Assembly (NCBI GenBank): GCA_031180825.1
Contig: JAPSLM010000001.1
Coordinates: 496,001-560,000, forward strand
DNA: 64,000 bases
Origin: Paenibacillus sp.
GTDB lineage: Bacteria; Bacillota; Bacilli; Paenibacillales; NBRC-103111
Direction: 5' to 3'
This document shows, one piece after another, positions 4,870 to 34,644 of this stretch; position 1 is the stretch's first letter; the number at the start of each line of letters is the position of its first letter. Both the position numbers and the translations under genes were made by a program. The notes below the pieces were generated by a model that worked only from the letters and a program-made list of their open reading frames with translations, had not been told where the DNA came from and ran no database searches.

Positions 4870-5648
4870 AGCAAGCGATGCTGAGATTGGCTTATCAATC
4901 CGATATCGGCCGGGTGCGGGCGGTTAACGAGGACCGCGCAGCCGTTCAAGAGGACTTGAACGGCTGGACCCTCGCCATTGTCGCGGACGGCATGGGAGGC
5001 CATCAGGCCGGAGATATCGCAAGTCAAATGGCGGTGGAGCTTATCCCGCTGCAGGTAAAATCCTTGGACCCGAACCGGTCGTCCGAGGAAAGACAGCATA
5101 AATTGAAGGAAGCGATCGAAGCCGCCAACGATAACATTTTCGAATTTGCGTCCGGACGCGAAAATTACCACGGGATGGGGACGACCGTCGTTGCCGTGCT
5201 GGCGAACGACGAGCGGGCTGTCGTTGCGCATATCGGCGACAGCCGCGTATACCGGATTCACAATGGGCAGATCGAGCAGTTGACGGAGGATCACTCGCTT
5301 GTGAACGAGCTGGTCAAAAGCGGCCAGATCACCCGCGAGGAAGCGAGCCATCATCCGCGGCGCAACGTCCTGACGCGTGCGCTCGGCACCGAGCCGACGA
5401 TCGAGGTGGATGTGCAGGAAATCGGCTGGGGTCCCGGAGACCTGCTGCTGCTGTGCAGCGACGGGCTAAGCAGCCTGGTTGAGCCGGGCCAAATGCTCCA
5501 GGCCGTGGCGGAGACGGATGGCCTGGAGCGTAAGGTGGACCGGTTGGTTCAGGCTGCGCTGGATGCCGGGGGCGACGATAACGTAACGGTGTTGCTGATC
5601 GAGAACGGGCCGGGTTCGGCGGTACATGACGACGGAGAAGCGGGGTGA
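4866..5648 (+). CDS. prpC: PP2C-family Ser/Thr protein phosphatase (PrpC/Stp)
   Basis: Removes phosphate from Ser/Thr residues and counteracts the kinase encoded next to it. PPM-family motifs with the metal-binding aspartates are visible in order: [48 protein letters not shown] and [11 protein letters not shown]. The length of 260 residues is typical and no membrane segment is seen, so it is cytosolic. The GTG start overlaps the rlmN stop (GTGA). Its last codons contain an in-frame upstream ATG for the kinase, but the kinase most likely starts after the prpC stop. Confidence 0.95.
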
Positions 5649-5655
5649 GGAAGCA

Positions 5656-7848
5656 ATGATCGGTAAGCAGCTTGGAGGACGCTACGAGATTTTGGGACGC
5701 GTCGGCGGCGGCGGAATGGCCATCGTATACAAAGGACTCGATAATTTATTGCATCGGCATGTCGCCGTGAAGGTGCTGCGTCAGCAGTACGTGCACGACG
5801 AAGAATTCATTCAGCGTTTTCGCCGCGAAGCGCAAGCCGCAGCCTCCTTGTCGCATCCGAACGTAGTCAGCATATACGACGTCGGCCAAGAGGAAGACAT
5901 CCATTACATCGTAATGGAGTATATCGAGGGAACGACCTTGAACGAGCTGATTAAGGAAAAAGCCCCGCTGCAGGTGGAGGAAGCCGTTCATGTTGCGATC
6001 CAGATTTGCGACGCCCTCGATCATGCGCATCATAATCAAATCATTCATCGCGATATTAAGCCTCACAACATTTTGATCGGCAAAAACGGCCGCGTCAAAG
6101 TCACCGATTTCGGGATCGCCCGCGCCGTCACTTCTTCCACGATTACGCAGACCGGCTCCGTCGTCGGCTCGGTTCATTATTTTTCGCCCGAGCATGCGAA
6201 AGGGACGCCGACCGGCGAGCAATCGGACTTGTACTCTCTCGGGATTGTCATGTACCAGATGCTGACGGGCCGGCTGCCGTTTCTCGGCGAAAGTCCGATC
6301 AGCGTAGCATTAAAGCATTTGCAGGAAGATGTCGAGGAGCCCCGCAAGGTGAACCCGCTCATCCCGCAAAGCGTGGAAAACATTATTCTGCGCGCGATGC
6401 GCAAAAGCACGTCTGAACGGTATCGTTCGGCCAAAGACATGCTCAGCGATCTGGAATCGTGCCTGCTGCCGCACCGCCGCAACGAGCCGAAAGTCAACTT
6501 TCTGGACGACGACGAGCTGGACGAGGAAAAGACGCGGGTCATGCCTGCGCTGCGGCCGGGACAATACGCCGTTGTAGAGGATGACGACGATCCGCAGCCA
6601 CGCGCGAAGGAAACAGCGTTGCCCGAGAAGAAAAAAGGCTGGGTCAAGCCGCTGGTCTGGTTCGTGGTGCTCATGGCGCTCGTCGTCGGCATGTGGTATG
6701 CGGTCCAGTACGTGCAGGAGAAATTATCGGTACAGCGGGTCGATATCCCGAACGTGGTGGATAAGCCGCTTGCCGAAGCCGAGAAAATCTTAACCGACAG
6801 CAAGCTTCAAGTGGGCGTGGAATACCAGAACGATGAGACGAAGCCGAAAGATATCGTCATCCGGCAGAGCCAGTCGAATATGCAGGTAAACGCAGGTTCG
6901 AAGATCCAGCTCACTGTCAGTTCGGGGCCTGCACTTAAACAAATGCCTGATGTTACCAAGCTGAAGCTGGCGGAAGCTAAAACGCAGCTGCTCTCGCTGG
7001 GCTTCAAGTCGGAAAATATTAAGATCGTTCAAAATTTTTCGGATGCCGAGCCGGAAACGGTGGCGACCCAAACGCCCGGGACGGATCAGCAGTACGCGAA
7101 CCCGGCCGACGTTAAGGTTGAACTGGTTGTCAGCAAAGGCCGGGAAACGTTCCCGATGCCGAATCTCATCGGCAAGACGGAGAATGAAGCGAAAACGCTC
7201 CTGAGGGACAATAACCTGAAGCTTTCCAAGGACGGCATTTCCCGCCAGCCGAGCTATAAGCAAAAAAAGGGCCGGGTGATCCAGCAGTTTCCGTTCGAGC
7301 CGAACGACGATGTAACGCCGGGCACGGAAATTACGCTGACCGTCAGCTCCGGCCTCCCGCCGGAAGCGGGACAGATGACCGTTCCCGTGCAGATTAAGCC
7401 GGCCAAGGAAGGGCAGGCGGCTACGGCCACGGTCATTCTAAACGATGCGGCAGTCGATAATTTTGAGTATCAGAAGCTCACGAACGTGACGCAAACGGAA
7501 ACGCTTGAGGTGAAGCTGATCGTCTCGCCGGAAAAAAATGCGACGGTCCAAATTCGCGGGGATGGCATTCAGAACGATTTGATAACCATCACCTATAAGG
7601 ATTACTTGGATCAAAAGAACGGCGAGAAGTCCGGCGGCGGGAAGACCGAGCCGCCGAATGGAGTCACCGGGACGAACGGCGGCGGGAAGACCGAGCCGCC
7701 GGCGACACCGGCTTCCGGCACGGGCGTCGAGAGCGGTAAGCCGGCGCAGCAAGGAAGCGGCGGAACGGCGGCGCCGACCGGACAGAACGGAGGCGCAGCG
7801 ACGGCTCCGGCCGGGAATACGACAGGCACAGGAGGCACGAATCCATAA
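5656..7848 (+). CDS. prkC: Membrane Ser/Thr protein kinase with three PASTA domains (PrkC/StkP type)
   Basis: A receptor kinase that senses peptidoglycan fragments and phosphorylates cell-wall, translation and germination targets. I place the start at ATG 5656 behind ggggtgagg, giving ~730 residues; an earlier ATG at 5626 lies inside prpC. The kinase domain shows the Gly-rich loop GRVGGGGMAIVYKG, VAVKVL, HRDIKPHNIL and DFGIAR. A single membrane helix (WFVVLMALVVGMWYAV) separates it from three extracellular PASTA repeats beginning about DIPNVVDKPLAEA, QMPDVTKLKLAEA and PMPNLIGKTENEA. The last ~80 residues form a Gly/Thr/Pro-rich low-complexity tail. It is coupled to prpC and, through a TAATG overlap, to rsgA. 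Confidence 0.95.
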   Translation: MIGKQLGGRYEILGRVGGGGMAIVYKGLDNLLHRHVAVKVLRQQYVHDEEFIQRFRREAQAAASLSHPNVVSIYDVGQEEDIHYIVMEYIEGTTLNELIKEKAPLQVEEAVHVAIQICDALDHAHHNQIIHRDIKPHNILIGKNGRVKVTDFGIARAVTSSTITQTGSVVGSVHYFSPEHAKGTPTGEQSDLYSLGIVMYQMLTGRLPFLGESPISVALKHLQEDVEEPRKVNPLIPQSVENIILRAMRKSTSERYRSAKDMLSDLESCLLPHRRNEPKVNFLDDDELDEEKTRVMPALRPGQYAVVEDDDDPQPRAKETALPEKKKGWVKPLVWFVVLMALVVGMWYAVQYVQEKLSVQRVDIPNVVDKPLAEAEKILTDSKLQVGVEYQNDETKPKDIVIRQSQSNMQVNAGSKIQLTVSSGPALKQMPDVTKLKLAEAKTQLLSLGFKSENIKIVQNFSDAEPETVATQTPGTDQQYANPADVKVELVVSKGRETFPMPNLIGKTENEAKTLLRDNNLKLSKDGISRQPSYKQKKGRVIQQFPFEPNDDVTPGTEITLTVSSGLPPEAGQMTVPVQIKPAKEGQAATATVILNDAAVDNFEYQKLTNVTQTETLEVKLIVSPEKNATVQIRGDGIQNDLITITYKDYLDQKNGEKSGGGKTEPPNGVTGTNGGGKTEPPATPASGTGVESGKPAQQGSGGTAAPTGQNGGAATAPAGNTTGTGGTNP

Positions 7849-8759
7849 TGCCAACCGGATTAATCGTGAAGGCGCTAAGCGGATATTATTACGTGCTCGC
7901 CGACGACACGCAAACGACCGAATCGGTGCAATGCCGGGCGCGGGGCATCTTCAAGAAGCGCGGCATTTCGCCGCTCGTCGGCGACCGTGTGGTGTACGGG
8001 CTGACGGAGAACGGGGAAGGAACGGTCGACGAAATTCTTCCCCGCTCCTCCGAGCTGATCCGGCCGCCGGTGGCAAATGTCGATTTAGCCGTACTGGTGT
8101 TCTCGGTGACCGAGCCGGCGCTTAATTTGCCGCTGCTGGACAAGTTTTTGGTACATACGGAAAGCGCCGGTCTCGACACGCTGATTTGTTTGACGAAGCA
8201 TGATCTGTTGTCCGAAGGAAGTTCGCCCGGCGGCGGTTCCGAAGAATTGGCGCCGGTGATCCGGCTCTACGAGTCGATCGGCTACCCGGTGATTGTGACC
8301 AGCGCCAAGGAAGGCATCGGCGTGAATGAAGTATTCAAGAGGCTGGAGGGCCGCATCGGCGTTTTTGCGGGGCAGTCCGGCGTCGGAAAGTCGTCGCTGC
8401 TAAACGCCATGGTGCCGGGGCTGTCGCTGGAAACGAACGAAATCAGCATGAAGCTCGGCCGGGGCAAACATACGACGCGTCACGTCGAGCTGATCCGGCT
8501 GCAGAACGGCGGGCTTATCGCCGATACGCCGGGTTTTAGCCAGCTCGATTTTTTGCAGGTGGATGCGGAGGGGCTTAGCGGGGCTTTCCGGGAATTCGCG
8601 CCTTATGCCGCAGCGTGCCGCTTCCGCGGATGCCTGCATTTGCACGAACCGGGCTGCAAGGTTCAGGAGGCCAAGGAAGCGGGCCATATCGCCGCATCGC
8701 GGTACAACCATTACATTCAATTTTTGAACGAGATCAAAGACAAAAAAAGGAGGTACTAA
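7848..8759 (+). CDS. rsgA: Ribosome small-subunit GTPase RsgA (YloQ/CpgA)
   Basis: A circularly permuted GTPase acting late in 30S assembly. An N-terminal OB domain (about residues 1-65) is followed by the permuted G domain: LTKHDL (G4), then [14 protein letters not shown] (G1), GRGKHTTRH (G2) and DTPGFS (G3). A C-terminal zinc site follows ([14 protein letters not shown]: Cys, Cys, His, Cys). The ATG overlaps the prkC stop. In Bacillus this GTPase is a substrate of the neighbouring kinase, which fits the shared operon. Confidence 0.96.
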
Positions 8760-8760
8760 G

Positions 8761-9429
8761 ATGCTGCGTATCGCTCCTTCGATCTTATCCGCCAACTTTT
8801 CCAAGTTGGGCGAAGAAATTGCCGACGTCGAGCGCGGCGGGGCCGACTGGATTCATGTTGACGTGATGGACGGACATTTCGTACCGAATATTACGATCGG
8901 ACCGCTGGTGGTGGAAGCGATCCGTCCGACGACGAAACTGCCGCTCGACGTGCATCTGATGATCGAGCAGCCGGACCGCTACATTGCCTCGTTCGTTCAG
9001 GCAGGCGCGGACCTGATATCGGTTCACGCCGAGGCGTGCGTCCATCTGCACCGGACGCTTCATTATATTAAGGAGCAGGGCGTTAAAGCGGGCGTCGTGC
9101 TGAATCCGGCTACTTCGCTCCATGCCTTGGAGCATGTGCTTGAGGAAGGGCTGGTTGATTATGTGCTGCTGATGACGGTTAACCCCGGCTTCGGCGGGCA
9201 AAAGTTTATCTCCGCCATGCTGCCCAAGATCGCCGGGCTTCGCCGCCTGCTGGACGAGCGCGGGCTTCAGCACGTCGATATCGAGGTTGACGGAGGCGTC
9301 AATACCGAGACGGCCAAGCTCGTGGCCGAAGCGGGCGCCAATGTGCTCGTCGCCGGGAATGCGGTGTTCAACCGGCCGGACCGCGCCGAGGCGATCCGTG
9401 CGATCCGGGAAGCCGGGAGCGGCAAATAA
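8761..9429 (+). CDS. rpe: Ribulose-phosphate 3-epimerase
   Basis: Interconverts ribulose-5-phosphate and xylulose-5-phosphate in the pentose phosphate pathway. It is a TIM barrel with the family motifs [24 protein letters not shown] (metal His and catalytic Asp), [19 protein letters not shown] and EVDGGVN. At 222 residues it is full length. It sits one base after rsgA, behind an aaaaaggaggtac site that overlaps the end of rsgA. Its stop overlaps the start of the next small gene (TAATG). Confidence 0.97.
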
Positions 9430-27813: not shown

Positions 27814-27934
27814 CCCCGCTATTCGCCGCGGAGACTTATGGTCTCAAATCCTTTATTTAGTTTTTTAAAAATCCATCCAACGGCAAATAATCTGGGTATT
27901 CACTACATTGCCGATTCGGAATGGAGGTAGCGGA

Positions 27935-28795
27935 ATGCCCGATTGGTTGGAAATCAGTTTGCGGACCCTGCTGTCGCTTATCGTGCTTTTCTTATTGACG
28001 AAGCTTTTGGGCAAAAGGCAAGTGTCTCAGCTTTCGTTTTTCGAATACATTACAGGAATCACGATCGGGAGCCTTGCCGCCTATATCTCGTTGGATCTGG
28101 AGGCCAACTGGTATTTAGGAATCGTATCTTTAGCGGTGTGGGTTCTCGCCTCCTTGGGCATCGAATTTTTGCAGTTAAAAAGCAAAACGGCCAGGGATTG
28201 GATCGACAGTAAAGCGACGATTCTTATCAAAGACGGAAAAATCATGGAAGATAACATGAAGAAGGAGCGCCTGACCACCGATGAGCTTTTGGAACAATTG
28301 AGGAAGCGAAACGTTTTTAAACCGGCCGATGTGGAGTTTGCGATTATGGAGCCCAGCGGAGATATTAACGTGCTTCTCAAAAAAGAGCATCAGCCTTTAA
28401 CTCCGGCCCACTTGGGGATCAAGGTCGGACCCGAACAGGAGCCGCAGGCCGTTATTATGGACGGCAACATCATGGACGAACCGTTGGCGACGCTGGGGCT
28501 AAGCCGGCAGTGGCTTCAAACGGAGCTGGAAAAAACAGGGGTAACGGTTGAAAATGTATTTTTCGGGCAAGTGGATTCTTACGGACAACTGTATGTCGAT
28601 TTGTACGACGATCAGCTTCAGGTTCCCGAGCCGCAGCAGAAAGCTTCGTTGCTCGCGGTCTTAAAAAAATGCGAAGCGGACCTTGAAATGTTCGCTCTGA
28701 CGACGAAGGACCAGCAGGCCAAAAACATGTACGAGCAATGCTCGAAGCGGCTGGAAAAAATGATTCAGGACGTCAAGCCTTCATTAATAAGATAA
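27935..28795 (+). CDS. DUF421 (YetF-family) membrane protein
   Basis: A 286-residue protein with three N-terminal membrane helices (LRTLLSLIVLFLLTKLLGKR, FEYITGITIGSLAAYI and YLGIVSLAVWVLASLGIEF) and a cytoplasmic DUF421 domain with KPADVEFAIMEPSGDINVL and PLTPAHLGI. Family members such as YetF occur in several copies in spore formers, some in spore membranes; the biochemical role is not settled. ATG 27935 lies six bases after ggaggt. A terminator follows directly. Confidence 0.9.
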   Translation: MPDWLEISLRTLLSLIVLFLLTKLLGKRQVSQLSFFEYITGITIGSLAAYISLDLEANWYLGIVSLAVWVLASLGIEFLQLKSKTARDWIDSKATILIKDGKIMEDNMKKERLTTDELLEQLRKRNVFKPADVEFAIMEPSGDINVLLKKEHQPLTPAHLGIKVGPEQEPQAVIMDGNIMDEPLATLGLSRQWLQTELEKTGVTVENVFFGQVDSYGQLYVDLYDDQLQVPEPQQKASLLAVLKKCEADLEMFALTTKDQQAKNMYEQCSKRLEKMIQDVKPSLIR

Positions 28796-28850
28796 GCGCA
28801 GCGCTGAGCCATGGATTGTTCATTGGCGCGGCGCTTTTTTCATGCCAGGG
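28795..28850 (+). terminator. Terminator after the DUF421 gene
   Basis: AGCGC-A-GCGC pairs with GCGC-G-GCGCT around a ~30-base loop, followed by TTTTTT. Confidence 0.7.
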
Positions 28851-28851
28851 G

Positions 28852-28887
28852 ACTCTCTTAACACGAGGGAGAGACCTCTTTTTTTAT
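28852..28887 (+). terminator. Second terminator-like hairpin
   Basis: CTCTCTT pairs with GGGAGAG across the loop AACACGA and is followed after a few bases by seven T. It lies directly upstream of a new promoter and would insulate it. Confidence 0.55.
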
Positions 28888-28916: not shown

Positions 28917-28944
28917 TTGACGAACCGTGTCAGAAACCTATAAT
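28917..28944 (+). promoter_or_regulatory. Sigma-A promoter of the ATP-grasp operon
   Basis: TTGACG (28917-28922) and TATAAT (28939-28944) with a 16-base spacer. The leader of ~130 bases before the first gene can fold through TTCTCGC (near 29008) and GCGAGAA (near 29038). Confidence 0.75.
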
Positions 28945-29083
28945 CGATTGTGGATGCAGCTTCCGGGCCGGACAACAAACCGCAATGGCGAATCGCGAAT
29001 CCTTTCTCGCCGTTGTACGTATATGTTTGGTGAATCTCGCGAGAAGGGCCCGTTTCCGAGAGAGAGAAAAGGAGTGCTGAAGC

Positions 29084-29530
29084 ATGATGACGCGATTGGA
29101 ATACCGTTTGTATGAAGAGGGCAGCGAGACGTTTCCGCTGCTGTATTATTATGACCGGATCGGCCGGGACGAGGTCGCTTTGCGTTTTGCGTGCGACTAT
29201 TTTATTAAGGACGGCAAGGTGTACGAGAAAACGTCGTGCGCGGTCGAGCCGGCGTGTTATGTCGTTTATGTGAAGGAAGCGCTTGACGAGCGGACGATGG
29301 TATGGGGCAAGCCGGAAGGTCCCCGCGGCGTTCGGATGGAGCTGAGGGAATACCGCGAATGGACGGCCGATTACCGGCTGGTGCATACGTATACGTTTCC
29401 CGATACGCTTGAGGCGATGCTTAGCCTTCAGGCGAACTATTTATATGCGGAAGGCCGGGAATGGCAGCGTAATTCCGCCGAAATCGACGAGGACCGCGAG
29501 ACGTATGTCTATTACGCCGTACCGGTGTAG
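29084..29530 (+). CDS. Uncharacterised cytoplasmic protein, first gene of the ATP-grasp operon
   Basis: A 148-residue acidic protein rich in Tyr, Glu and Arg, without signal peptide or membrane helix. I do not recognise a family. Segments such as FPLLYYYDRIGRDEVALRF and FIKDGKVYEKTSC suggest an alternating beta fold. AAGGAG precedes the tandem ATG codons (29084, 29087) at a good distance. It is followed by the lipoprotein, ATP-grasp and DUF350 genes on the same strand with short gaps, so it probably belongs to the same system. A role as adaptor or regulator would be speculation. Confidence 0.75.
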   Translation: MMTRLEYRLYEEGSETFPLLYYYDRIGRDEVALRFACDYFIKDGKVYEKTSCAVEPACYVVYVKEALDERTMVWGKPEGPRGVRMELREYREWTADYRLVHTYTFPDTLEAMLSLQANYLYAEGREWQRNSAEIDEDRETYVYYAVPV

Positions 29531-29566
29531 CCGCAATTCCAAACCGGGAAAACAGGAGTGACGAAA

Positions 29567-29836
29567 ATGGAACAGCAAAAAAGCAGCAGGACACGCAAAC
29601 TGGTAGCGTTGTTCGTGGCGTCGACACTGGTGCTCGGCGGCACGGCAGGCTGCTCCGATTCGAAATGCACCGATCGCAACGGGGACGGTTATTGCGACGA
29701 CGGCAGCGGCGGTTCGTCCGGAGGACGTTACTATGGCGGCTCCAGCTCGGGGGGCAGCTCTTATAAAGCCTCTACGGGCAGCTCTTCGGGGATCAGCAAA
29801 GGAGGCATCGGCGGCAAAGGCAGCTCAAGCTCCTAG
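29567..29836 (+). CDS. Small Gly/Ser-rich lipoprotein, probable substrate of the ATP-grasp ligase
   Basis: An 89-residue exported protein: signal peptide KLVALFVASTLVLGG followed by TAGC, whose Cys should carry the lipid. The mature part begins SDSKCTDRNGDGYCDDG, with a DxNxDGxxDD calcium-loop-like sequence between two Cys, and then becomes a Gly/Ser/Tyr tail ending SKGGIGGKGSSSS. The tail motif Ser-Lys-Gly-Gly-Ile-Gly recalls, from memory, the Arg-Gly-Gly-Phe-Gly motif near the C-terminus of E. coli YgiB-type (DUF1190) proteins, which also sit beside ATP-grasp genes. ATG 29567 follows aggag at eight bases. Confidence 0.75.
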   Translation: MEQQKSSRTRKLVALFVASTLVLGGTAGCSDSKCTDRNGDGYCDDGSGGSSGGRYYGGSSSGGSSYKASTGSSSGISKGGIGGKGSSSS

Positions 29837-29902
29837 CGTCATAGACGCCATGGACAGTCCGATGACCATTAACAGCAAAGATCAGAGAGGAGGCGGGCGG
29901 AC

Positions 29903-31186
29903 ATGAGCATCGCAAAGATGCTGCGGCCGGACGCTTCTTATGCGGAACGGCGGGAAGCGATTTACGAGCCGCTGCGGCAAGAGGGCATTTTTACATGGGA
30001 CTGTTTGTACGGCCAGGAATATGCGCTCGCCGGCCTACACCGGTTGGAACGCGCGCAGCTGGAAGAAATGCGCAAAGCCGCCGAGGCGTTGGGACGCATT
30101 TATGCCAAGACCATCCGGATCGTCCAGCAGGGCGAACCGGCGCTTTTGGCCGAATTGGGGCTGCCTCCCGCGTCGTTCGGTGCTATCCGTTTGCGGTTTG
30201 ACGAAGAAGTACCGACGCTGATCGGCCGGTTCGATTTTGCTCTGACGCCGCATGGGCTCAAGATGCTTGAGTTTAACAGCGACACGCCGACAGGAATTGT
30301 CGAAGCCTTTCATGTGAACGGCCGCGTGTGCGCCGCCTACGGCGAAGAGGATCCGAACGAAGGCTGCAGCGGGGCTTTCCGCCAGGCGTTTAAGCGGATG
30401 ATGGACCTGTACCGCGAAGCGGGCTATGCGTCCGAGCATGTCGTCTTCAGTTCGCTGGACTGGCATGAGGAGGATGCCGGAACGACGCGCTATCTCCTGC
30501 GACAATCCGGGATTGCCGGCGCTGAATTTGCGGCGCTGTCCGACATTCGCGTGGAGGGAGACCGGATATGGGCGCAGCGTAATGATGGTGATCAAGGGGT
30601 CGCGAGCAATCCGATCGATGTTTTGTATCGGCTGCATGCAATCGAGAAGCTGGCCGAAGACCGGGATACGGATGGTTATCCGACCGGCGAGCATGTGCTG
30701 GAATTAATAGCGGACGGCAAGCTGGCGATTATCAATCCGCCCTCGGGGTTTGCCGCCCAGACGAAGGCGCTGCAGGCGCTGATCTGGAATTTGCATCAAG
30801 CGGGAGAGTTTTATTCGGAAGAGGAGCATGAGGCGATCGAAGCCTATATGCTGCCGACGTTTATGGAGCCGTGCTTTCCCGAAGTTACGCCTTATGTGGT
30901 GAAGCCGATTCTCGGGCGCGAAGGCAGCGGGGTCACGATCTACGCGGGGAGCGGGGAGGTTGCGGAAGAAAGCGGGGAAGACGAATACGGGGATCAACCG
31001 ATGGTCTACCAGCAATACGCCGAGCTGCCCCGCATCCGGGTGGAAACTTTAACCGGCCCGTATGAAGGGCGGCTGCTCTGGGGCTGCTTTCTGATCAACG
31101 GCCGAAGCTCTGCCGTCATCGCGCGCGTCGGCGGAAGCATCACGAACAATTTGTCCTATTACTTGCCTTCGTCGGTCATCGACTAA
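29903..31186 (+). CDS. ATP-grasp peptide/amide ligase, glutathionylspermidine-synthase family (YgiC/YjfC type)
   Basis: A 427-residue protein of the C-terminal synthetase family of glutathionylspermidine synthase, without the amidase domain. It opens with the pre-ATP-grasp part; conserved pieces are GRFDFALTP, KMLEFNSDTPTGIVEA (active-site segment), then VVKPILGREGSGVTIY (ATP-grasp lysine and Gly loop), YQQYAEL and the closing SSAVIARVGGSITNNLSYYLP. Family members join an amine to a carboxylate using ATP. E. coli YgiC and YjfC are the closest named relatives and do not make glutathionylspermidine, so the substrate is open. The neighbours point to a lipoprotein or envelope target. The ribosome site is agagaggaggcggg. 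Confidence 0.88.
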   Translation: MSIAKMLRPDASYAERREAIYEPLRQEGIFTWDCLYGQEYALAGLHRLERAQLEEMRKAAEALGRIYAKTIRIVQQGEPALLAELGLPPASFGAIRLRFDEEVPTLIGRFDFALTPHGLKMLEFNSDTPTGIVEAFHVNGRVCAAYGEEDPNEGCSGAFRQAFKRMMDLYREAGYASEHVVFSSLDWHEEDAGTTRYLLRQSGIAGAEFAALSDIRVEGDRIWAQRNDGDQGVASNPIDVLYRLHAIEKLAEDRDTDGYPTGEHVLELIADGKLAIINPPSGFAAQTKALQALIWNLHQAGEFYSEEEHEAIEAYMLPTFMEPCFPEVTPYVVKPILGREGSGVTIYAGSGEVAEESGEDEYGDQPMVYQQYAELPRIRVETLTGPYEGRLLWGCFLINGRSSAVIARVGGSITNNLSYYLPSSVID

Positions 31187-31240
31187 ACCTTCAGGTAAGA
31201 ACAGTCTTACATAACTAAATTATTGGGGAGTTGGAGTTCG

Positions 31241-31675
31241 TTGGACCAGTTTGGGAATATCGTTAACTTTTTGATGTATTTGGGCGTGACCATACCGCTT
31301 ATGGGGCTCGGCATTTTGTTTTTCAACCTGACGACGCCGTACAACGAGTTTAAGCTCATTCGGGAGGGGGGCGACTTGTCCGATCCCGGTAAAGCAGTGG
31401 CCGCCAAAGCAGCGGCTTACGATCTTGGGGGCAAAATTATCGGCCAAGTGCTCGTTCTCGCATCAGCCGTTTATCATTCGGTCGGACTCGTCGATTTAAT
31501 CATCTGGGGACTCATCGGCATTGCGTTCCAGATTATCGTATTCTACTTGTTCGAACTGCTGACCCCTTTCAAAGTACTGGCTGAAATTCCGAAGGGCAAT
31601 GTGTCCGTTGGCATTTTCTCGTTTTGTTTGAGCCTGGCATCGGGCCTGTTGCTGGCTTCGTTAATCAGCTATTGA
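31241..31675 (+). CDS. DUF350 membrane protein (YjfL/YshE type)
   Basis: A 144-residue protein with four membrane helices, starting VNFLMYLGVTIPLMGLGILF and ending FCLSLASGLLLASL; DUF350 proteins are built from two similar two-helix halves. The start is taken as TTG 31241, behind ggggag and ttggag; TTG 31223 has no site. In E. coli yjfL lies in the same cluster as yjfM (DUF1190) and the ATP-grasp gene yjfC, so the linkage seen here is conserved over a great distance. Role unknown, likely in the membrane step of the same pathway. Confidence 0.85.
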   Translation: MDQFGNIVNFLMYLGVTIPLMGLGILFFNLTTPYNEFKLIREGGDLSDPGKAVAAKAAAYDLGGKIIGQVLVLASAVYHSVGLVDLIIWGLIGIAFQIIVFYLFELLTPFKVLAEIPKGNVSVGIFSFCLSLASGLLLASLISY

Positions 31676-31721: not shown

Positions 31722-32111
31722 ATGCTAAAGCTCAACAACATTCACCATGCCGCCGTCATTTGCTCGGATTACGAGAAGTCGAAGCATTTTTACGTCCGCG
31801 TTCTCGGACTGACGGTCATCCGGGAAACCTACCGCGCCGAGCGCCAGTCATATAAGCTCGATCTGCGGGTGGGAGACGGCCACCAAATCGAACTGTTCTC
31901 GTTCCCGGATGCGCCGGAGCGGCCAAACTATCCGGAAGCGAGAGGCCTGAGGCATCTGGCCTTCGAGGTGGACGACATCGAGGCGGCAGTCAAGGCTTTG
32001 CAGGCCGAAGAAATCGCCGTGGAGCCGATTCGCGTCGACGAAACCACGGGAAAACGATTTACGTTCTTTTTCGATCCGGACCGGCTGCCCTTGGAGCTGT
32101 ATGAAAAATAG
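31722..32111 (+). CDS. VOC-family (glyoxalase-fold) protein, YwkD/YaeR type
   Basis: A 129-residue single-domain vicinal oxygen chelate protein with the four metal-ligand positions in place: IHHAAVIC (His), HQIELFSF (Glu), LRHLAFEV (His) and LPLELYE (Glu). The reaction is unknown for this subgroup. ATG 31722 is the likely start, although AAGGAGG is 14 bases away; GTG 31710 is too close to that site. It may be cotranscribed with the DUF350 gene (46-base gap), and a terminator follows. Confidence 0.85.
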   Translation: MLKLNNIHHAAVICSDYEKSKHFYVRVLGLTVIRETYRAERQSYKLDLRVGDGHQIELFSFPDAPERPNYPEARGLRHLAFEVDDIEAAVKALQAEEIAVEPIRVDETTGKRFTFFFDPDRLPLELYEK

Positions 32112-32122
32112 AATAACGGATA

Positions 32123-32159
32123 AAACAAGACTCGTGCGCTGTGTACGGGTCTTGTTTTT
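32123..32159 (+). terminator. Terminator after the VOC gene, probably closing the ATP-grasp operon
   Basis: ACAAGACTCGT pairs with ACGGGTCTTGT (one G-U) around a nine-base loop and runs into TTTTT. Confidence 0.85.
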
Positions 32160-33297: not shown

Positions 33298-34644
33298 ATG
33301 ACACAGCTTCGTTTACCCCATTATTCTCTATTCAAACTGCTCGTTGCCGGCGGCATGATGCTGCTGATGGCCGTTGTTATGCTGCTTTTCTCGGACCGGG
33401 CTTTTGCCCATGGGTATATCGATTCGCCGGGCAGCCGGCCTTATTTGTGCAAGCTGGGACAAAACAAGAACTGCGGAGCGATTATTTACGAGCCGCAAAG
33501 CCTTGAAGCGCCTAAAGGTTTTCCGCAAGCCGGGCCGGCCGACGGCAAAATCGCCAGCGCTGGCGGAGCGTTTCCGGAGCTTGACCAGCAATCGGCTACA
33601 CGCTGGACTAAGGTACCGATGACGGCAGGTACGAAAACGTTTACTTGGAAGCTGACTGCGCCTCACGCCACGTCCAGCTGGAAGTATTACATCACCAAAC
33701 AAAACTGGGATCAAAACGCCCCGCTCAGCCGGGCTTCGTTCGACCTCACGCCGTTCTGCTCGGTAAACTACGGCGGAAAGAAGCCTCCGAATACGTATTC
33801 CGATACATGCAACGTCCCCAGCCGGACCGGCTATCAAGTCATTCTGGCGGTTTGGGAAATTGCCGATACGGCTAATGCCTTCTACAATGTCATCGACGTG
33901 AACTTCGGAGGGGATTCTTCGGATACTCAACCTCCTACTGCACCGACGGGTTTAAGCGCTTCCAATCTTACGGCCACAAGCGTATCGCTGACATGGAACG
34001 CATCGAGCGATAACGTCGGAGTGTCCGGCTACAAAATTTATAACGGTTCGACGCTGGTTGCCGCCGTCTCCGGATCGACTTTAAATTATAACGTTACGGG
34101 GTTGACCTCGAATACGTCCTATACGTTTACGGTTCGCGCCGAAGATTCCGCGGGCAACGCCTCCAGCGCAAGCAACGCCGTCACGGTTACGACTCCTGCC
34201 GTACCTGTAGACAATGAGGCTCCTACGGCTCCGACAGGCTTGCATGTGATGGGTACTCCGACTTCCTCCAGCGTTCGTCTGATGTGGAGCGCATCGACCG
34301 ATAACGTCGGAGTGACGGGCTACCGTGTGTATCGTGGAACGACGTTGGTGACCACGGTATCGGGAACGACGCTTGAATATACGGTTACCGGCTTGACGCC
34401 CGACACGTCCTATTCGTTCACGGTTCGCGCAGTTGACGCCGCCGGCAACGTATCGGCCGACAGCAATGCCGTGAATGCCAAGACGGCTTCCGGCCCGGCG
34501 GTTTCCGAATGGGCGCCGAATGTGGCCTATACGGCAGGCACGATTGTTACCTACGACGGCAAGACGTACGAGTGCCGTCAGGCGCACACTTCGCTGGTCG
34601 GCTGGGAGCCGCCTAGCGCAGCTTCGCTCTGGTTGTTGAAGTAA
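33298..34644 (+). CDS. Secreted chitin-active lytic polysaccharide monooxygenase (AA10) with two FnIII and one chitin-binding domain
   Basis: A copper enzyme that oxidatively cleaves crystalline chitin or cellulose. The signal peptide ends AFA, leaving His38 as the N-terminal copper-brace residue ([14 protein letters not shown]); the second brace His is in [13 protein letters not shown]. The catalytic domain (about residues 38-205) has paired Cys and ends VIDVNFGG. Two fibronectin III repeats follow (each starting PPTAPTGL or APTAPTGL), then a C-terminal CBM5/12 ([20 protein letters not shown], ending [12 protein letters not shown]). 448 residues. A perfect AAGGAGGT site precedes the ATG, implying high expression. 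Confidence 0.95.

Follow-up and report, generated by a model that had tools for sequence, protein, structure and literature searches.

The analysed window, a stretch of 64,000 nucleotides of Paenibacillus sp. DNA from an assembly of 4.33 Mb in 31 contigs, contains a compact operon in which a promoter is followed by ORF1, a small lipoprotein gene, a gene encoding an ATP-grasp ligase of the GSP_synth family and a DUF350 gene; a VOC gene and a terminator come next. The features of the locus are compiled in Table 1. A good sigma-A promoter behind two upstream terminators and a strong terminator at the end of the operon had been proposed in a preliminary description of this locus, and both proposals were borne out by the scores and folding energies in Table 1. 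The two promoter hexamers are invariant across ten aligned upstream regions, representing the window and nine close relatives. The region as a whole contains 5 promoter-like sites versus 5.8 in shuffled sequences and 9 terminator-like sites versus 8.0, with no excess over chance in either case, so that only the individual sites carry weight. The VOC gene is probably co-transcribed with the operon, although it lies outside the conserved core, since it was the next gene after DUF350 in 17 of the 28 fetched relative loci, and these 17 all lie in the same genus.

Table 1. Features of the ligase operon and its flanks (positions within the window)
Feature	Position	Strand	Properties and evidence
Upstream terminator 1	28800..28840	+	hairpin and T run after YetF-family gene; -21.8 kcal/mol, z -2.8
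Upstream terminator 2	28850..28885	+	hairpin and T run; z -2.3
Sigma-A promoter TTGACG-16-TATAAT	28917..28944	+	scores 11/12
ORF1	29084..29530	+	acidic, pI 4.7; two predicted bb-a-bbb repeats; no family
ORF1 repeat 1 (aa 1-66)	29084..29281	+	profile alignment and predicted structure
ORF1 repeat 2 (aa 83-148)	29330..29527	+	profile alignment and predicted structure
Small lipoprotein, 89 aa	29567..29836	+	lipobox Cys 29; AGGAG upstream of ATG
Lipoprotein C-x-D-x-N-x-D-G-Y-C-D segment	29666..29698	+	calcium-loop-like, perhaps with disulfide; positions fixed or nearly so among 20 sequences
Conserved C-terminal tail KGGIGGKGSSSS of lipoprotein	29798..29833	+	predicted ligase substrate; tail conservation
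GSP_synth-type ATP-grasp ligase, 427 aa	29903..31186	+	PF03738, 183.7 bits (cut-off 29.3)
DUF350 membrane protein, 145 aa, TTG start	31238..31675	+	PF03994, 115.5 bits (cut-off 26)
VOC/YaeR gene	31722..32111	+	NF050075 (SMU1112c/YaeR family), 206.8 bits (cut-off 140)
Strong intrinsic terminator	32122..32158	+	hairpin 3' of VOC gene; -23.6 kcal/mol, z -6.8

The PF03738 match of the ligase spans positions 10-370 of 371 and is the only Pfam family found in the protein, with no amidase domain among the matches; against the glutathionylspermidine synthetase/amidase equivalog NF007801 the ligase scored 56.1 versus 882 bits and thus stayed below the cut-off. When ten diverse members were aligned, with a YjfC sequence that is incomplete and stops at the end of its locus, residues R109, D111, E123, N125, K288, K334, R339 and E340 showed no variation, and the expectation that the ATP and Mg residues are intact was thereby confirmed. 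At the offset of the PDB sequence match, the spacing of D111/E123/N125 equals that of the magnesium ligands D318/E330/N332 in GspSA. The closest PDB sequences are those of YgiC and YjfC (7uk8, 7uk6), followed by trypanothione and glutathionylspermidine synthetases. Both E. coli proteins carry the RefSeq name peptide--spermidine ligase, and the title of a 2023 study by Pederick et al. reportedly calls YgiC/YjfC peptide-spermidine ligases. By analogy with these relatives, the family of the window ligase has a reported activity in peptide-spermidine ligation. Another paper terms YgiC/YjfC peptidylpolyamine synthetases (PMC12568646). Accordingly, the earlier placement of the ligase in the YgiC/YjfC branch stands on its best PDB matches, whereas the accompanying view that the substrate of this branch is not known conflicts with the peptide-spermidine ligase naming; the literature passages searched contained no statement on the physiological substrate of these enzymes. 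PF03738 was detected above the cut-off in 82 of 200 sampled genomes of the class, and the ligase was found in 49 of 60 genomes; among the control genomes, B. subtilis yielded no hit for PF03738.

The ORF1 product yielded no Pfam or NCBIfam match at E values up to 10, and no signal peptide is visible in its sequence. Alignment of the profiles of its N-terminal and C-terminal halves covered 63 columns with an HH probability of 97.9% (E 4e-13), as compared with 41% (E 3e-4, 17 columns) for the reversed C-terminal half as control. An AlphaFold model built with 59 sequences (pLDDT 94.1, pTM 0.88) contains the topology strand-strand-helix-strand-strand-strand twice, from E2-9 to E59-65 and from E83-89 to E140-147. 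Profile alignment and model together indicate that ORF1 is a tandem duplication. The gene is present in 29 of the 60 genomes, the own genome included, and its closest relatives occur in Paenibacillus, with 92-95% identity in P. tyrfis, P. elgii, P. ehimensis and others. A scan of contigs from 84,980 species, according to the figure of the database itself, provided 225 stretches with the search pattern, 170 of them encoding ORF1 relatives, and the best 80 of these 170 loci, chosen by ORF1, formed the ORF1-linked set. This set includes Paenibacillus, Brevibacillus, Aneurinibacillus, Tumebacillus, Lihuaxuella, Paenactinomyces, Thermoflavimicrobium, Sporomusa, a Desulfosporosinus MAG, Metabacillus, Lysinibacillus and other genera. 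The first gene of the operon had been regarded as lineage-specific, a view that does not agree with the occurrence of ORF1 relatives across the Bacillota rather than just in Paenibacillus.

Conserved linkage of the four genes, on which the preliminary description had made its reading depend, was retained in the related genomes: the order ORF1, lipoprotein, ligase and DUF350 is kept in 27 of the 28 ORF1 loci outside the window, which are all such loci of the 60 genomes. The exception, L052, contains ORF1 and the lipoprotein gene only, followed by what appears by eye to be part of a phosphodiesterase gene, and no ligase match was found in that genome. Within the best 80 of 170 loci, a ligase match or remnant is located at most about 0.7 kb from ORF1 in every case (80/80), including a truncated ligase fused in frame to DUF350 (L117) and two ligases split over two frames (L099, L169). 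ORF1 thus represents an unannotated protein family that lies next to the ligase gene in all of these best 80 of 170 loci. DUF350 is present in 79 of the 80, the exception being L122, whose locus ends early, and the lipoprotein was detected in 77 by HMM, to which L152 and L156 were added by eye; in L146 the ligase is present and no motif-bearing lipoprotein was found within its 12 kb. ORF1 is divergent from the adjoining ligase gene in 11 of the 80 loci, and the linkage therefore outlives rearrangement. Since the set was selected by ORF1, it is uninformative on ligases without this gene.

In 20 aligned lipoproteins, the tail residues G79, G80 and G82 never vary and I81 and S87-S89 hardly do; C29, C34, D36, D40, Y42, C43 and D44 are likewise invariant. 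The ORF1-linked set comprises 107 lipoproteins, 83 of them unique by their last 60 residues, and 82 of these 83 contain X-[GS]-G-[FIYVL]-G within the last 45 residues, L147 being a protein without the tail motif. The last such motif starts 12-14 residues from the C-terminus in 64 of the 82 proteins, 16 residues in one and 6 residues in 17; the latter are Bacillus-type tails, each of which also has SG[IF]G with the preceding residue 14 from the end. A motif in the last 30 residues combined with a G/S end was found in 81 of the 83 lipoproteins versus 5 of 668 other non-overlapping ORF products (ORFs rather than curated genes) from the same 80 loci, and one of these five is the L152 lipoprotein overlooked by the HMM. 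The strict pattern CxDxNxDGYCD occurs in 56 of the 83 unique proteins and is thus less general than the tail. Moreover, the tail is retained in L132, L142 and L153, in which the DxNxDG segment is gone, and in L150, which lacks the lipobox Cys. Judged from these alignments, the tail is the most conserved part of the lipoprotein, outlasting the calcium-loop-like segment. Of the unique proteins, 42 end in G, 40 in S and one in E, and the frequency of serine argues that a glutathione-like terminal glycine is not required.

The tail is low in complexity, so that some of the similarity may be due to composition. Its G/S composition would suit a mere flexible wall-spanning or glycosylated linker for surface exposure, with the ligase linkage reflecting shared regulation, as would the looser motif and spacing beyond the ORF1-linked set described below; this explanation is very improbable in view of a specific motif at a near-fixed distance from the C-terminus in that set and of Gly/Ser tails on exported proteins with dissimilar N-terminal parts.

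Ligase loci without this ORF1 come from 21 genomes in which the ligase is just 32-39% identical; 20 of them were read in context, with G043 left out, and DUF350 is part of the locus in all 20. Type B loci, which among those listed include L174, L175, L176, L179 and L190, consist of genes for a protein of about 160 aa, a small lipoprotein, the ligase and DUF350, with a potassium-channel-like gene, recognized by eye, upstream as well in L174 and L175. Type C loci comprise a 69-aa protein, a secreted protein of about 210 aa, the ligase, a DUF4247-like gene, DUF350 and a DUF4178 gene. The 69-aa protein occurs in 14 of the 20 loci, and the DUF4178 match had an E value of 2e-25 in L177, the one type C locus scanned; the DUF4247-like gene is a reading by eye that the Pfam scan of L177 did not confirm.

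A wider tail survey included 50 ligase loci (L174-L193, L197-L226), with some genomes represented twice. In 43 of them, the gene directly upstream of the ligase encodes at least 9 G/S among the last 20 residues. One of these genes, that of L186, has perhaps been read off frame. The strict motif is present in 30 of the 43 tails, at 6 to 24 residues from the end, and absent from 13, while the looser [GS][GS][FIYVLW]G is found in 35; several others have KGFG or KGLG. Reading of five of the seven loci outside the 43 (the remaining two being L214 and L217) showed a tail in L185, L203 and L212, a frameshift with a tail in a different frame in L189, and an EGFGG terminus in L223. No DUF350 gene was detected in 8 of the 50 loci, all from the set with flanks of only 1.5 kb. 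Accordingly, the near-fixed distance from motif to end is a property of the ORF1-linked set, whereas elsewhere the G/S-rich end is general and the exact tag is not; by their sequences, the tails of other Bacillales ligase loci and of E. coli YgiB and YjfM are related but looser.

The reaction of glutathionylspermidine synthetase attaches spermidine to the carboxylate of a C-terminal glycine. Because a ligase of the GspS family here adjoins a protein that is most constant at its C-terminus, the simplest reading is that the tail would be the acyl substrate. We give about even odds (a probability of roughly 0.5) to the best explanation, namely that the four genes form an envelope module whose cytosolic ligase joins a polyamine to the tail carboxylate before export. 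In the cytosol, the ATP-grasp enzyme would activate the carboxylate at the end of the Gly/Ser tail and join it to an amine, with spermidine or a related polyamine as the likeliest candidate; export and lipidation of the capped lipoprotein would follow. DUF350 would act as membrane partner, and ORF1, presumably cytosolic, would most likely hold or present the lipoprotein precursor or the ligase. Since no export signal is visible in the ligase, the reaction would precede export. The conserved C-terminal tail strengthens, without proving it, the earlier suggestion of the lipoprotein as a target of the ligase. The loci L052, L146 and L147, with no ligase match in the genome, no motif-bearing lipoprotein within 12 kb and no motif, respectively, count against the proposed explanation, as do the looser motif and spacing beyond the ORF1-linked set, the ligase loci in which DUF350 was not detected, the low complexity of the tail and the need for a cytosolic ligase to act ahead of export.

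The amine is most likely spermidine, as the own genome contains one Spermine_synth gene (1.1e-73) and two AdoMet_dc matches (8.2e-34 and 2.2e-11), although these are common genes, with Spermine_synth in 11 and AdoMet_dc in 8 of 14 control genomes. These spermidine-pathway families, together with the word spermidine in the names of the characterised relatives, make it rather improbable that the ligase modifies the tail with a different amine, be it an amino acid, a polyamine other than spermidine or an amine of the envelope like ethanolamine, an option left by the occurrence of serine as well as glycine termini and by the predicted nature of the amine donor.

GspS relatives act on small peptides, and the ligase might likewise produce a small peptidyl-polyamine metabolite that DUF350 moves or senses, with the lipoprotein as an extracytoplasmic binding or metal-sensing partner instead of the substrate. 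The prevalence of DUF350 in the ORF1 loci and the calcium-loop-like segment are consistent with this alternative, as is the description of DUF1190 as metal-chelating in a survey of the PSP system (PMC11237479); we consider it unlikely, because it offers no reason for the retention of the tail rather than of the presumed sensor segment. If the capping of the tail is extended beyond the window, a dedicated ligase may polyamine-cap the C-terminus of an exported lipoprotein by reading a [KR]-[GS]-G-[FIY]-G-type tag in Bacillota and Proteobacteria alike, with ORF1 as the presenter or chaperone of the Bacillota; we propose this widespread modification tentatively, at somewhat less than even odds. 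Such a modification would tie polyamines covalently to a protein of the bacterial envelope, and the tail yields a specific prediction, namely that the C-terminal peptide of YgiB, YjfM or the window lipoprotein is shifted in mass.

The core trio of ligase, lipoprotein and DUF350 is already published: the linkage of ATP-grasp, DUF350 and lipoprotein genes is part of the PSP survey of Ravi et al. 2024 (PMC11237479), and the DUF4178 and K+ channel variants in that survey resemble the types C and B of the Bacillales. Its section 19 makes no mention of ORF1 or the tail motif, and the passages retrieved by a keyword search of the literature on these families did not contain the proposal of the tail as ligase substrate. 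The conserved lipoprotein tail is hence the element that looks new, with the novelty of the idea being uncertain, as Pederick 2023, Iyer 2009 and Li 2019 may contain it. No PspA or CesT/Tir gene was detected by a Pfam scan of the four operon genes, the VOC gene and four neighbours.

With E. coli glutathionylspermidine synthetase/amidase and trypanothione synthetase, the window ligase shares the ligase domain and the spacing of the Mg ligands, but it differs from the former by the lack of a matched amidase domain and by a score far below the equivalog cut-off. The E. coli yjf operon offers another comparison. The claim that E. coli keeps the same three parts together holds for yjfL-yjfM-yjfC, encoding DUF350, a DUF1190 protein and a peptide-spermidine ligase, but not for ygiB-ygiC, where no DUF350 gene is annotated in the surrounding 9 kb. 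The window lipoprotein, unlike YjfM, has no DUF1190 match (Pfam, E up to 10). The gene order differs too, and the window has ORF1 where E. coli has yjfI/J/K. ORF1 occupies the place of yjfI, which is described as CesT/Tir-like in the survey (PMC11237479), and this position suggests a presenting role; homology was not detected, with hhalign probabilities under 1% against YjfI, YjfJ and YjfK in a weak test with single sequences. An exported neighbour with a Gly/Ser-rich tail beside the ligase, a criterion proposed here and not an established one, is present in the window, and the E. coli partners are similar in this respect: YgiB has TRGGFGES with 28 residues from motif to end and the terminus MGG, and YjfM has SRGGYGRSS with 16 residues and the terminus WGG (both counted). 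The yjf and ygi loci share with the window the Pfam family of the ligase and an exported partner, which in E. coli has the motif RGG[FY]G and terminates in GG; the yjf locus also shares the DUF350 neighbour.

Very close relatives likewise carry the lytic polysaccharide monooxygenase family gene of the window 3' of the operon. In the genome from which the window was taken, the ligase gene of the operon provides the sole match to PF03738; a second DUF350 gene is present on another contig.

Features flanking the operon in the window and features of individual loci from other contigs or genomes
Source	Coordinates	Feature	Basis
Window	27932-28795	YetF-family membrane protein, DUF1657 domain at C-terminal end	domain matches
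Window	33298-34644	lytic polysaccharide monooxygenase family gene, fn3 repeats and CBM5/12 domain	domain matches
Own genome (L001)	G000:C10:107471-107857	second DUF350 gene	
Aneurinibacillus aneurinilyticus ATCC 12856 (L117)	6535-7563	truncated ligase fused in frame to DUF350	
Thermoflavimicrobium daqui (L147)	5510-9027	ORF1-lipoprotein-ligase set between two DUF350 matches, one upstream and one downstream	
L052	6172-7521	ORF1 and lipoprotein continuing directly into the apparent C-terminal portion of a gene for a phosphodiesterase	

The gene fusion of A. aneurinilyticus represents either a genuine internal deletion or a misassembly. At the ORF1 locus L052, a DUF350 match was absent from the 14-kb locus and a ligase match from the whole genome. 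The exported protein of the T. daqui locus is characterized by a long N-terminal part rich in proline, asparagine and glutamine, and the tail motif X-[GS]-G-[FIYVL]-G is absent from this protein. At the ligase loci L220 and L221, which were retrieved with flanks of only 1.5 kb, a DUF350 match was not found within the short locus, and the gene upstream of the ligase encodes the end VGGFGD[SA]HAG...GG, a divergent form of the Gly/Ser tail.
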